DNA from: Haloprofundus salilacus
GTDB lineage: Archaea > Halobacteriota > Halobacteria > Halobacteriales > Haloferacaceae
Assembly (NCBI RefSeq): GCF_020150815.1
Contig: NZ_CP083723.1
Location: forward strand, 2,046,001-2,110,000
Length of the DNA: 64,000 nt
Reading direction: 5' to 3'
Shown here: piece after piece, positions 36,395-39,502 of the stretch
How positions within the stretch are numbered: position 1 is the first letter of the stretch
How the letters are laid out: every line of letters begins with the position of its first letter
The notes under the pieces: model-generated
Told to the model about the DNA's origin: nothing
The model's database searches: none
What the model saw: only the letters and a program-made list of their open reading frames with translations
Made by a program: the position numbers and the translations under genes

Positions 36395-36417
36395 ATACGG
36401 AACGGAAGGTGACGGCG

Positions 36418-37272
36418 TCAGTCGGCGCCTTCCGCTTCGCGCGAGCGCTGCCGGGCCTCGTGCAGTTGCGCGCAGACGCCGCCCTGCCCCCGCATGTTCA
36501 CCGACGCCAGGCGACCGCGGCGGCGGACGAGTTCGAACTCGTCGACCGAAATCGGCTCTCTCTCGGGCGTGCGGAACAGCGGTCCCGAGTCGAGGTCGAG
36601 ACCGACTGACTCGGCTTTTTCCACGTAGTCGACCATCGAATCGCGCGGCACGCAGAGACGTATGGCTCCGTCGGCGACCGAGACGACCACCCGCTCGCTG
36701 TCGGGGCCGTCGGGGTCGAACGCCACGTCGTCGGTCGTCAGCGAGACGAGTTGTTCCGGGGTCGCGCCGGCGTCGAGCAAGGCGTCGAGCGCTCGGTGCT
36801 GACGGACGATGCGCGCCTTCTCGTTGAGTTCACGTCGGACCGCCTGGAGGTCACCGTCGGCGTCGTCGAACGCCTCTGCGAACACGCGGTCTCCGTTCAC
36901 CCCCTCGGTGAGTTCGGTCTCGTGGACGTGATCTTCGAGGACGACGCGAGCACGGCCGACGCCGGGGAGCGACTCGACCGCCGCGCACGCGTCGACCAGC
37001 ATGAGCCACGCGAACGCGGGCGAGCACCACGCCGTCGGCAGCGAGAGGCGGACCGTCACTGTTCCGCTGCCGCGGTCGCCGTCGGTGGCGTCGCTGCCGC
37101 AGTCACTGGGAGTCTCGCCGCCGCCGAGTTCGATGCCGGTTATGTAGTCGAGTTCGACGATAGAGCGGTCGAGTTCCGGGTCAGTGACTCCGTCGAGCGC
37201 GTTTCGGACCGCGCTGCGTCGCGGCGTGACCGCGCTCGTGAGAGGTTCGCCCGACGGAAATTCGCCCGCCAT
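36418..37272 (-). CDS. MIP18/PaaD-type (DUF59) protein of amidohydrolase cluster
   Basis: A 284-residue protein. The N-terminal domain (about 20-115) is MIP18/PaaD-like: AVRNALDGVTDPELDRSIVELDYI, then strands and LPTAWCSPAFAWLM with the single Cys typical of Fe-S assembly relatives. A helical and beta second half of about 150 residues is not recognised; it has Cys in VCAQLHEARQ near the end. The start overlaps the stop of the upstream amidohydrolase (TGATG), so they are co-translated. In bacterial propane monooxygenase clusters a DUF59 protein sits beside the same amidohydrolase, where a role in di-iron enzyme maturation is suspected. Confidence 0.8.
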   Translation of the reverse strand: MAGEFPSGEPLTSAVTPRRSAVRNALDGVTDPELDRSIVELDYITGIELGGGETPSDCGSDATDGDRGSGTVTVRLSLPTAWCSPAFAWLMLVDACAAVESLPGVGRARVVLEDHVHETELTEGVNGDRVFAEAFDDADGDLQAVRRELNEKARIVRQHRALDALLDAGATPEQLVSLTTDDVAFDPDGPDSERVVVSVADGAIRLCVPRDSMVDYVEKAESVGLDLDSGPLFRTPEREPISVDEFELVRRRGRLASVNMRGQGGVCAQLHEARQRSREAEGAD

Positions 37273-38327
37273 CAGTCCGCGGCCGCGTCCGCGGCGTAGT
37301 CGTCGCCCAGTCCGAACTGTTCGGATATCTCGTCGGACTGCAGTTCCTTCTTCTTCTTCTCGATGTCGATGTCGTAGAGGCGGGCAGCGTTCTCGCCCAT
37401 CACCTTCCTCATCACCTCTGTCGAGAGTTCGACGCCGTACTCGTCGCGCTGCTCGGGGGTGAGTTCGGCCTCCATTACCAGTTCGACGAGCCAGTCGGGG
37501 TTCCACAGCGCATAGTCGCTGCCGAAGAGGAGTCGGTCCTCGCCGAGCCAGTAGAGCAGTTCGCCCATTATCTCGCCGAACTTCCGGGGTCGGTTCTGCA
37601 CCATCGGCGCGGCGACGGCGAGGCCGCCGTAGACGTTTGGCTCTTGCGCGCCGATCCAGCAGAAGTCGTCGAGTCGGGGGAGACCGACGTGCTCGACGAC
37701 GAAGTTCAGTTCGGGGAAGGAGGTGGCGGCGTCGTCGACGTCGGCCACGTCGAAGGCGTCGCGGTTCAGCGGCCGGATCGTCGGTCCCTTGTGGGGGTGG
37801 ATGTTTTTGATTCCTAACTCGCTGCACTTTTCGAGGAACTCGAACGTCTCGGGGTCGTCGAGTCGCCACCCCTTCGAGTCGCCCTTCCACTCCGCCGTGT
37901 AGAGCTTCACACCGTCGACGTCGTACTCCTCCTTCTGGCGCTCCAGTTCGCGCTTGCCAGCCTCGCCGTCGCGCGGGTCGAACCGACCGTTGACGATGAA
38001 CCGTTCCGGATACCGGTCGACGAGTTCGGCGTTGTCGTCGACGGTGTTGAACCCGTTCTTGTAGAACTCGTGGAGGTGCGTCGGCTGGAAGATGGCCATG
38101 TCGACCGCGCCGTTGCCGAACAGGTCCTCGACCATCCGGTCGGCGCTGTACTTTCGATACTCGTCGAGGCTCCACTGCCGGTCCTCGGGCGTGAACCCGG
38201 TGTGATAGTCGTAGAAACAGCGGATGAACTGCTCACCGCCGTCGGTCTTGATGTTCTCCTCGCTCGCGTCCCAGTGGTGGACGTGTGCGTCGACGACGAA
38301 CACGTCCTCCCCGCGTTGGCGGTACAT
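37272..38327 (-). CDS. Amidohydrolase of the propane-monooxygenase-cluster type
   Basis: A 351-residue TIM-barrel metal hydrolase of the amidohydrolase-2 (decarboxylase/ACMSD-like) branch. Metal motifs: VVDAHVHHWD (His15, His17), NIHPHKGPTIRP (His), FVVEHVGLPR (His) and FGSDYALWNPDW (Asp). The region QPTHLHEFYKNGFNT and WIGAQEPNVYGGLAVA closely recalls, from memory, the amidohydrolase gene found in actinobacterial prm/mim propane oxidation operons. Its substrate is not established there either. It shares a transcript with the downstream MIP18-like gene and is divergent from an alcohol dehydrogenase. Confidence 0.85.
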   Translation of the reverse strand: MYRQRGEDVFVVDAHVHHWDASEENIKTDGGEQFIRCFYDYHTGFTPEDRQWSLDEYRKYSADRMVEDLFGNGAVDMAIFQPTHLHEFYKNGFNTVDDNAELVDRYPERFIVNGRFDPRDGEAGKRELERQKEEYDVDGVKLYTAEWKGDSKGWRLDDPETFEFLEKCSELGIKNIHPHKGPTIRPLNRDAFDVADVDDAATSFPELNFVVEHVGLPRLDDFCWIGAQEPNVYGGLAVAAPMVQNRPRKFGEIMGELLYWLGEDRLLFGSDYALWNPDWLVELVMEAELTPEQRDEYGVELSTEVMRKVMGENAARLYDIDIEKKKKELQSDEISEQFGLGDDYAADAAAD

Positions 38328-38365
38328 TGTGGGTTGATATCAGGACACATTCTACATTATTGTTC

Positions 38366-38411
38366 GTGATGTTATCACTCATTGACAATTTATTGTGTGA
38401 TCATATATTTT
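38366..38411. promoter_or_regulatory. AT-rich divergent promoter region with palindromes
   Basis: Between the amidohydrolase and alcohol dehydrogenase genes, GTGAT-N3-ATCAC (38366-38378) and ACAAT-N2-ATTGT (38385-38396) are adjacent inverted repeats, followed by TGATCA and the TATA-like CATATATTTT (38402-38411). They look like operators for a shared regulator. Confidence 0.45.
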
Positions 38412-38464
38412 CCGTGTTAATTTGCTAAACAGCTATCACGTCGTGCGTGTCAGTTTGTATCATG

Positions 38465-39502
38465 ATGCAAGCCGCGAGATTACACGAGTACACCGACGAC
38501 ATGGAAAATGCGCTGTCGATAGACGAGGTCGACCGACCGGAGCCGGGTCACGGCGAAGTCGTCGTCGAAGTCGAGGGCGCGGGGTGGTGCCAGACGGACA
38601 ACCACATCATCGAGGGGATGTGGACCGACTACGTCGAACAGGAGCTTCCGATGACGCTCGGCCACGAGAACGCCGGAACCGTCGTCGAAATCGGCGACGG
38701 CGTTGAGACCGTCTCGGAGGGCGACTCGGTCATCTGCCACCCAGTGATGACCTGTGGTGTCTGTCGCGCCTGTCGGATGGGCGAAGACATGTACTGCGAG
38801 AACCTCTCGTTCCCCGGACTCACGACCGACGGCGGGTTCGCCGAGTATCTGCTCACCTCTCAGCGGTCGGTCATCCCGCTTCCAGAGGGCACCGACACGA
38901 CCGACATCGCGCCGCACGCCGACGCCGGTATCACGGCGTACCACGCCGCCAAGAAGGCTGTCCGCGAACTGAACCCCGGCGACCACGCCGTCGTCATCGG
39001 CATCGGCGGTCTCGGCCACATCGGCCTGCAGTGTCTGAACGCGATGAGCGCGGCGAACATCGTCGCCGTCGACCTGAAAGACGAGGCGCTGGACCTTGCG
39101 GCCGACCTCGGCGCCCACGAGACGGTGAATCCGACGAACGTCGACGCCGCCGACGCGATCGACGACGTCACCGACGGCGCGGGCGCGCGACAGGTACTCG
39201 ACTTCGTCGGCGCCGACCAGACGACCGAACTCGCCCCGGACATCGTCTCGGCGGGCGGTGACCACCACATCATCGGCTACGGCGGGCACATCCACGAACC
39301 GACGCAGGCGCTCGTAAACGGCGAGTTCAGTTTCCGCGGTAACATCGTCGGCAAGTACACCGAACTGCAGGAACTCGTCTCGCTGGTCGACCGCGGCGAC
39401 GTCGAACTCCACACGTCGCGCTACGACCTCGACGACGTGAACACCGTCGCCGAGAAACTCGAACACGGCGAGATCGAGGGCCGCGCAGTCATCACGCCGT
39501 AA
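38465..39502 (+). CDS. Zinc-dependent NAD(P) alcohol dehydrogenase
   Basis: A 345-residue medium-chain alcohol dehydrogenase. Catalytic zinc is bound at Cys42 (GWCQTDNH) and His67-Glu68 (LGHENAG), with a later ligand in the 140s region. Structural zinc is held by Cys97, 100, 103 and 111. The Rossmann motif is GIGGLGHIGLQ, and the acidic residue at the end of strand two (AVDLKDE) favours NAD over NADP. It is similar to the Adh of propane/2-propanol operons. MQAARLHEY was taken as start; ATG one codon earlier is also present. Divergent promoter shared with the amidohydrolase. Confidence 0.9.
   Translation: MQAARLHEYTDDMENALSIDEVDRPEPGHGEVVVEVEGAGWCQTDNHIIEGMWTDYVEQELPMTLGHENAGTVVEIGDGVETVSEGDSVICHPVMTCGVCRACRMGEDMYCENLSFPGLTTDGGFAEYLLTSQRSVIPLPEGTDTTDIAPHADAGITAYHAAKKAVRELNPGDHAVVIGIGGLGHIGLQCLNAMSAANIVAVDLKDEALDLAADLGAHETVNPTNVDAADAIDDVTDGAGARQVLDFVGADQTTELAPDIVSAGGDHHIIGYGGHIHEPTQALVNGEFSFRGNIVGKYTELQELVSLVDRGDVELHTSRYDLDDVNTVAEKLEHGEIEGRAVITP

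Follow-up and report, generated by a model that had tools for sequence, protein, structure and literature searches.

We analyzed a three-gene locus within a window of 64,000 nucleotides (the whole stretch of DNA under study) from Haloprofundus salilacus, which is a haloarchaeon and not an actinobacterium. The locus comprises the following features.

36418..37272, minus strand: gene for a DUF59/MIP18-like (FeS_assembly_P) protein, 284 aa, Pfam PF01883
37272..38327, minus strand: amidohydrolase gene (PF04909, ACMSD/decarboxylase-type TIM barrel), 351 aa
38328..38461, no strand: AT-rich divergent intergenic region of 134 bp, common to the amidohydrolase-DUF59 unit and the alcohol dehydrogenase (ADH) gene
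38462..39502, plus strand: gene for an NAD(P)-dependent zinc (MDR) ADH, 346 aa, Pfam PF08240/PF00107

The stop codon of the amidohydrolase gene overlaps the start codon of the DUF59 gene at position 37272, and the divergent gap has a GC content of 36%, compared to about 66% for the window. The most likely start codon of the ADH gene is the ATG at position 38462 rather than the GTG at 38447, which opens a longer reading frame. No monooxygenase gene adjoins the trio in the window. An earlier note had described the three genes as standing alone around a common divergent promoter region, which is borne out by the gene positions and the 134-bp gap, and had likened them to the accessory genes of propane monooxygenase clusters. 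Indeed, all three products are full-length homologs of prm/mim accessory proteins. The amidohydrolase shares 54 to 58% identity with the copies found in proteobacterial and actinobacterial monooxygenase clusters, and identity to prm/mim cluster members is about 30 to 35% for the DUF59 protein and 44 to 49% for the ADH. In such clusters, the amidohydrolase, DUF59, ADH, and GroEL genes lie downstream of prmABCD/mimABCD (PMC4428276, PMC6849523).

The three proteins

The amidohydrolase matches the Pfam profile PF04909 (Amidohydro_2) over its whole length (1.5e-47), and its AlphaFold model (pLDDT of 91.5) has a TIM-barrel fold. Across 126 sequences, residues H15, K141, H179, H213, and D271 are invariant and H17 and H177 nearly so. 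In the family alignment, the metal-ligand set (HxH, His, His, Asp) is complete in the window protein, and HxA takes the place of HxH in 6 of the 126 members. Foldseek related the model solely to the broad decarboxylase/hydratase group, at 13 to 18% identity; the sequence matched no solved structure, and no NCBIfam subfamily scored above cutoff. The protein is most likely a metal-dependent hydrolase or lyase.

The DUF59 protein matches PF01883 (FeS_assembly_P; 1.4e-10, 41.7 bits in Pfam) and consists of an N-terminal MIP18 domain, with a TxWC[SA]P cysteine motif, and a helical C-terminal extension that harbors a second invariant cysteine. DPELD, C83, H115, K152, and C267 are invariant in the family alignments. 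Its AlphaFold model has a pLDDT of 89.5, and the top Foldseek matches, CIAO2B and DUF59 structures, cover the N-terminal part only. A weak PaaD-like match was also observed.

The third protein matches the zinc ADH profiles PF08240 and PF00107 (3e-28 and 5e-22, respectively). According to Pfam, alignment, and structure matches, it is composed of GroES-like and Rossmann domains with catalytic and structural zinc ligands; Cys43, His68, Asp154, and Asp204 are conserved in the alignment. The nearest solved structures are the ADH of Aeropyrum pernix (1h2b) and the secondary ADH-A of Rhodococcus ruber. Trio ADHs form one clade (100/100), which also contains the ADHs of prm clusters. This tree first suggested an ADH exclusive to the trio, an idea that we dropped since 98 haloarchaeal genomes encode the ADH without the amidohydrolase-DUF59 pair. 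Being common in haloarchaea without the pair, the ADH may therefore serve other pathways.

Absence of the monooxygenase and conservation of the trio

The di-iron hydroxylase search called for in the earlier note was run and found none: profile searches of the window's genome, which is 99.7% complete in two contigs, detected neither hydroxylase alpha/beta subunits (PF02332) nor the coupling/effector protein MmoB/DmpM (PF02406). As a control, the PF02332 search detected PrmA/PrmC-type subunits, haloarchaeal hydroxylases, and genomes having PF02332. Among 391 haloarchaeal genomes, a close amidohydrolase was present in 123 and PF02332 in 4, with no genome having both. Likewise, PF02332 was missing from 19 of 24 whole genomes of bacteria with stand-alone loci, including Thermogemmatispora, Bacillus sp. 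PAMC26568, Streptosporangium, and Actinacidiphila oryziradicis. Proteobacterial stand-alone loci with PF02332 elsewhere in the genome were found in Acidiphilium and in Rhizobium, Rhodospirillaceae, and gammaproteobacterial MAGs. Thermomicrobium roseum was withdrawn as a monooxygenase-free example: a six-component enzyme of the toluene-4-monooxygenase type, and thus not of the prm type, is encoded on its plasmid about 370 kb from the trio.

In a sample of 36 haloarchaeal loci covering several families, the arrangement recurs, which excludes chance: the amidohydrolase was present in all 36, DUF59 in 35, and the ADH in 32 (divergent in 29), with a divergent gap in most loci, usually of about 90 to 180 bp. 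No neighbor beyond the trio recurred in more than 7 of these loci. At the core of the trio are the amidohydrolase and DUF59 genes, which form an obligate pair. In raw counts, which ignore shared ancestry, the amidohydrolase and the long DUF59 protein each occurred in 119 of 382 haloarchaeal genomes, and these genomes were the same for both; 118 of them also encode the ADH. The two genes of the pair adjoin in 121 of 125 loci, whether or not a monooxygenase is present. This co-occurrence and adjacency point to the amidohydrolase as the putative client of the DUF59 protein. Furthermore, a genome of the same genus (G022) has kept the ADH and the flanking genes and lacks exactly the pair, so that the pair has been cleanly lost or gained between the two genomes.

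Bacterial loci have other neighbors. In Bacillota, a DJ-1/PfpI gene follows the pair, and in Rhizobium N324 a lactoylglutathione lyase-like gene does; IclR-like or sigma-54/Fis regulators are present at bacterial loci, and one MAG locus lies within a run that includes ABC and SSF transporter genes. These contexts were too different from one another, and bacterial neighbors were dropped as clues to the substrate.

The trio is patchily distributed (about 31% of haloarchaeal genomes), and stand-alone loci are the rule in Chloroflexota and Bacillota too. In the amidohydrolase tree, the haloarchaeal sequences form one clade (99/86) outside the monooxygenase-linked clades. Linkage to a monooxygenase is itself polyphyletic, as AU tests rejected the placement of all linked sequences in a single clade (p=4e-7), with or without haloarchaea. 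In addition, none of the 4 haloarchaea bearing a monooxygenase was found to have the amidohydrolase-DUF59 pair. Both the phylogeny and the monooxygenase-bearing relatives thus speak against a prm-specific reading of the trio, which is therefore not left over from a prm cluster but a module of broader occurrence that prm clusters employ as well.

Possible function of the module

The earlier note had left two options, a monooxygenase encoded elsewhere or a different job for the trio, and the missing di-iron monooxygenase and the separate clade support the latter. Because the trio works without a monooxygenase here, in relatives, and in several bacterial phyla, it is probably a metabolic module of its own. 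We give about even chances to the reading that it is an autonomous module, and not a monooxygenase remnant, made of a metal-dependent amidohydrolase, a dedicated MIP18-like protein, and an NAD-linked ADH. The assembly of metal centers is the job of DUF59/MIP18 and PaaD-type proteins, and the MIP18-like protein would most likely assemble or protect the metal center of the amidohydrolase. The pair would work beside, and depend on, the zinc ADH, which may oxidize a small alcohol (a secondary one, such as 2-propanol, is our best guess) or reduce the matching carbonyl; the amidohydrolase would then act on the substrate or product of the ADH or on a derivative thereof. Where the genes belong to proteobacterial or actinobacterial prm/mim clusters, the same step would receive its alcohols and ketones from the monooxygenase. 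Weighing against this reading are the lack of a recurrent further neighbor that would name a pathway, the distant and broad Foldseek relationship of the amidohydrolase, the HxA variants in its family, the Fe-S clients otherwise known for MIP18-family proteins, the frequent presence of the ADH without the pair, and the raw nature of the co-occurrence counts. As downstream routes for acetone, acetone carboxylase (PF08882) was absent in a search that had no working control, and flavin monooxygenase/BVMO (PF00743) gave just a weak 28.5-bit match.

That the trio serves in trans a prm/mim-type monooxygenase encoded elsewhere could hold for some proteobacterial stand-alone loci, those of Acidiphilium and the three MAGs, but we regard it as next to impossible for the window's genome, which lacks both PF02332 and PF02406, as the other 122 amidohydrolase-bearing haloarchaeal genomes lack PF02332. 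Barring a replicon missing from the assembly, we reject it there. The homology to bacterial clusters and the patchy distribution would also suit a scenario in which an ancestral haloarchaeon took up a prm cluster that has since decayed to the trio. However, the unit is kept across many haloarchaeal genera with invariant catalytic residues, its clade lies outside the monooxygenase-linked ones, and stand-alone loci prevail in Chloroflexota and Bacillota as well; on conservation and phylogeny, we reject this highly improbable origin.

Two further explanations carry more weight. The amidohydrolase and DUF59 protein could be maturation or protection factors for another metalloenzyme encoded elsewhere, with the ADH as a promoter-sharing bystander. 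The general role of DUF59/MIP18 and PaaD-type proteins, the weak PaaD-like match, a possible parallel role for the di-iron hydroxylase of prm clusters, the 61 loci where the pair stands together with monooxygenase and GroEL, and other oxygenases in the window's genome, such as P450s, are compatible with this. We nevertheless find it unlikely: 123 haloarchaeal and 19 bacterial genomes encode the amidohydrolase but no di-iron hydroxylase, the presence of the pair follows that of the ADH (118 of 119) and not that of an oxygenase, and the metal site of the amidohydrolase is complete. Moreover, in Actinomycetospora chiangmaiensis grown on 2-HIBA, the amidohydrolase-like protein of the Mim cluster makes up 3.2% of the proteome and changes slightly relative to acetone-grown cells (1.6), close to the hydroxylase subunits (PMC7176365). 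At such abundance, the protein resembles an enzyme or a stoichiometric partner more than it does a maturation factor needed in trace amounts. Detoxification, in which the ADH would be an aldehyde/ketone reductase and the amidohydrolase would clear a reactive, methylglyoxal-like carbonyl or adduct outside any growth pathway, would agree with the DJ-1/PfpI and lactoylglutathione lyase-like neighbors and with the acetone-to-acetol-to-methylglyoxal chemistry proposed for Mim clusters (PMC7176365). Yet these neighbors do not recur in haloarchaea, the IclR-like or sigma-54/Fis regulators of bacterial loci are of types often seen with catabolic genes, and transporter genes accompany one MAG locus; we judge detoxification to be rather improbable.

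Returning to the autonomous module, we more tentatively propose that the pair might be an unrecognized metalloenzyme with its own MIP18-type metallochaperone for a non-Fe-S client, and might define an undescribed small-alcohol/ketone pathway shared by about a third of haloarchaea with several bacterial phyla, the same step being hidden in propane/acetone monooxygenase operons. If true, the supposed role of the MIP18 family, whose otherwise known clients are Fe-S proteins and not amidohydrolases, would be widened by a member that serves an amidohydrolase exclusively. Our search of the literature found the prm-linked set and no description of a stand-alone module, and the papers that we read on propane/acetone monooxygenase operons describe the amidohydrolase and DUF59 genes solely as accessory or of unknown function. 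Monooxygenase-free genomes make the function of both proteins testable without a complex oxygenase, potentially in a genetically tractable haloarchaeon, and the window's genome and G022, where only the pair is missing from the locus, offer a close natural comparison.

Comparison with known systems

The amidohydrolase shares the TIM barrel and the HxH, His, His, and Asp ligands with other PF04909 enzymes, namely, ACMSD, 2,6-dihydroxybenzoate decarboxylase, 5-carboxyvanillate decarboxylase, and LigJ, but differs from them by its low identity (13 to 18%), an extra invariant lysine on beta-4 (Lys141), and its obligate DUF59 partner. Similarly, the DUF59 protein has the DPE(L)(D) and T..(W)C(S/A)P motifs and the N-terminal MIP18 fold of MIP18/CIAO2B, SufT, and PaaD assembly proteins. 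Unlike these, it continues beyond the MIP18 domain in a long helical C-terminal region that contains another invariant cysteine, and its genomic partner is an amidohydrolase instead of a known Fe-S target. The ADH is a zinc MDR enzyme like 1h2b (340 bits) and ADH-A (about 224 bits), with the Cys/His/Asp positions kept and an aspartate after the second Rossmann strand (NAD type); in contrast to both, it belongs to a lineage-specific haloarchaeal subclade, and it is often found without the pair.

Finally, the trio shares its three proteins, as well as the order and tight coupling of the amidohydrolase and DUF59 genes, with the Group V soluble di-iron clusters prmABCD/mimABCD of Rhodococcus BCP1/RHA1, Gordonia TY-5, and Mycobacterium. 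It differs from them in lacking nearby genes for a hydroxylase, a reductase, a coupling protein, and a dedicated GroEL; among haloarchaeal trio loci, a GroEL-like chaperonin (MimG) was represented by one short fragment (34%, locus L076). Moreover, the ADH gene is divergent, whereas that of prm/mim clusters is codirectional, and the haloarchaeal clade stands apart from the monooxygenase-linked clades.

Gene layout and conservation of the trio

The genome carrying the trio is a haloarchaeal one of 3.73 Mb on two contigs (completeness 99.7%), and its three genes lie as follows.

38327-37272, minus strand: amidohydrolase (Pfam PF04909)
37272-36418, minus strand: DUF59 gene (Pfam PF01883)
38462-39502, plus strand: alcohol dehydrogenase, ADH (Pfam PF08240/PF00107)

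The start codon of the DUF59 gene overlaps the stop codon of the amidohydrolase gene, so these two genes appear to be translationally coupled. The gap separating the divergent genes spans 134 bp and has a GC content of 36%, compared to about 66% for the window. No NCBIfam model matched the amidohydrolase or the DUF59 protein above threshold.

Across 36 haloarchaeal loci, the amidohydrolase recurred in 36, the DUF59 gene in 35, and the ADH in 32 (29 divergent), and no other neighbor was found in more than 7. When archaeal and bacterial loci were taken together, 121 of 125 had DUF59 at most 3 kb from the amidohydrolase. The long DUF59 protein was present in 119 of 382 haloarchaeal genomes, exactly those with a close amidohydrolase, and the trio-type ADH in 216, namely, 118 of the 119 genomes with the amidohydrolase-DUF59 pair and 98 without it. 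The pair implies the ADH, the converse is untrue, and by these counts, which are uncorrected for phylogeny, the nesting is nearly strict. In G022, a genome of the same genus, the region is preserved, with the ADH in place and most flanking genes at 72 to 96% identity, and both minus-strand genes are cleanly missing. There, positions 8688-8871 of L193 (G022 C1:614000-632000) correspond to window positions 36395-38461, with synteny on both sides, and the intergenic remnant comprises only the ADH-proximal part.

Distribution of di-iron monooxygenases

A profile search of the window's genome found neither the di-iron hydroxylase (PF02332) nor the coupling protein MmoB/DmpM (PF02406). PrmA-type alpha and beta subunits match PF02332 at 2e-61 and 2e-72, and such subunits would therefore be detected. 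Among 391 haloarchaeal genomes, 123 encoded the amidohydrolase at 55% identity or more (the four beyond the 119, with handles above G381, presumably fall outside the 382-genome sample), 4 had PF02332, and none had both. The four soluble di-iron monooxygenases (loci L051-L054; genomes G063, G216, G348, and G094) have distant hydroxylases, with 24 to 26% identity to a PrmA-type subunit, and no trio genes nearby. Of 24 whole genomes from bacteria with a stand-alone locus, some of them MAGs and possibly incomplete, 19 lacked PF02332 anywhere; the 5 positive ones were all proteobacterial. On the Thermomicrobium roseum plasmid, DUF59, amidohydrolase, and ADH come in that order, accompanied by an IclR regulator and an iron ABC transporter (L040, 529719-532623); the plasmid also bears, separately, a toluene-4-monooxygenase-type six-component cluster (L192, 892000-910000).

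Predicted functions of the three proteins

The predicted amidohydrolase structure (pLDDT 91.5) matches ACMSD-type decarboxylases and hydratases. In 126 sequences, His15, Lys141, His179, His213, and Asp271 are invariant, and His17 (120/126) and His177 (122/126) nearly so. Binuclear amidohydrolases have a carbamylated lysine on the fourth barrel strand; Lys141 is predicted to lie on that strand and may likewise be carbamylated. In an actinobacterium that bears Mim, the amidohydrolase-like protein accounted for 3.2% of the proteome during growth on 2-HIBA and only a slightly different share on acetone (PMC7176365), an abundance that fits an enzyme role. Six family members (L042, L138, L141, L162, L163, and L167; four from Bacillota) have HxA in place of HxH, and a DJ-1/PfpI gene follows three of the Bacillota pairs. 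A haloarchaeal amidohydrolase-2 subfamily of paralogues (L086, L087, and L088; about 30% identity) has neither the HxH motif nor the last metal-binding Asp (SSGA or SGGS, not GSDY) and is thus probably not a canonical metallohydrolase.

The N-terminal part of the DUF59 model (pLDDT 89.5) matches CIAO2B and other MIP18 proteins. The MIP18 cysteine motif is retained, while a second invariant cysteine lies in a long C-terminal extension. Since DUF59 almost always comes after the amidohydrolase, whether or not a monooxygenase, GroEL, or ADH is present, we infer that the amidohydrolase is its simplest client.

The solved structures nearest to the ADH are those of the Aeropyrum ADH and a Rhodococcus secondary ADH. 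Its conserved Cys43, His68, and Asp154, identified by alignment, match the zinc ligands of secondary ADHs, and we take Asp204 to suggest NAD as the cofactor. In a tree, the trio ADHs group as a single clade (100/100), within which the haloarchaeal ones are a subclade (100/96), and the remaining ADHs of the window's genome are distant from it (nearest paralogue, 36% identity).

The ADH would interconvert a small alcohol and its carbonyl, the metal-dependent amidohydrolase would act on the substrate or product of the ADH or on a derivative, and DUF59 would maintain amidohydrolase metallation. In a Bacillaceae MAG (L103, 995-15979), the trio belongs to a series of genes read in one direction, alongside those for dipeptide-type ABC transport, an SSF symporter, an amidase, an SDR, and an M20 peptidase, which may be a hint that the substrate is derived from an amide or peptide. 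Metal or iron-chelate uptake genes, including the periplasmic binding protein PF01497 and iron ABC transporters, adjoin several loci (L148, 11133-12137; L040, 1857-5784; L049, 13798-16627); these neighbors would suit a metal-demanding product.

Relation to propane monooxygenase clusters

In a maximum likelihood tree of 81 rows, the haloarchaeal amidohydrolases form a single clade (99/86), apart from the actinobacterial and proteobacterial groups in which the monooxygenase-linked copies fall; copies from Chloroflexota, Bacillota, and Thermomicrobiota are stand-alone. Grouping the monooxygenase-linked amidohydrolases as one clade was rejected (p-AU 4e-7), as was grouping them with the haloarchaea (p-AU 1e-50). 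The very distant outgroup leaves the root uncertain, and the tree therefore does not show in which order the monooxygenase link was gained and lost.

A translated search found amidohydrolase relatives with 54 to 58% identity on plasmid records of Caballeronia, Aminobacter, Paracoccus, Ponticoccus, Gemmobacter, Bradyrhizobium, and Rhodococcus. Each of the six proteobacterial clusters examined has genes annotated as hydroxylase alpha, reductase, hydroxylase beta, and MmoB, followed by amidohydrolase, DUF59, and GroEL. In two of the six, an ADH intervenes ahead of the amidohydrolase; all six have an ADH nearby, not always of the trio type. The Rhodococcus genes run amidohydrolase, DUF59, ADH, GroEL, and upstream of them lies an alpha-subunit match. 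This accessory set has been described downstream of prmABCD (PMC4428276; PMC6849523).

All three window proteins align over their full length with their prm-cluster counterparts. Given these alignments and the shared gene set, the resemblance to propane monooxygenase accessory genes proposed in the earlier note is real. The prm-specific reading is right only in part: the trio is a stand-alone module whose members serve in prm/mim clusters too. Its occurrence without a monooxygenase allows a direct test of what two functionally unassigned propane monooxygenase operon genes do.
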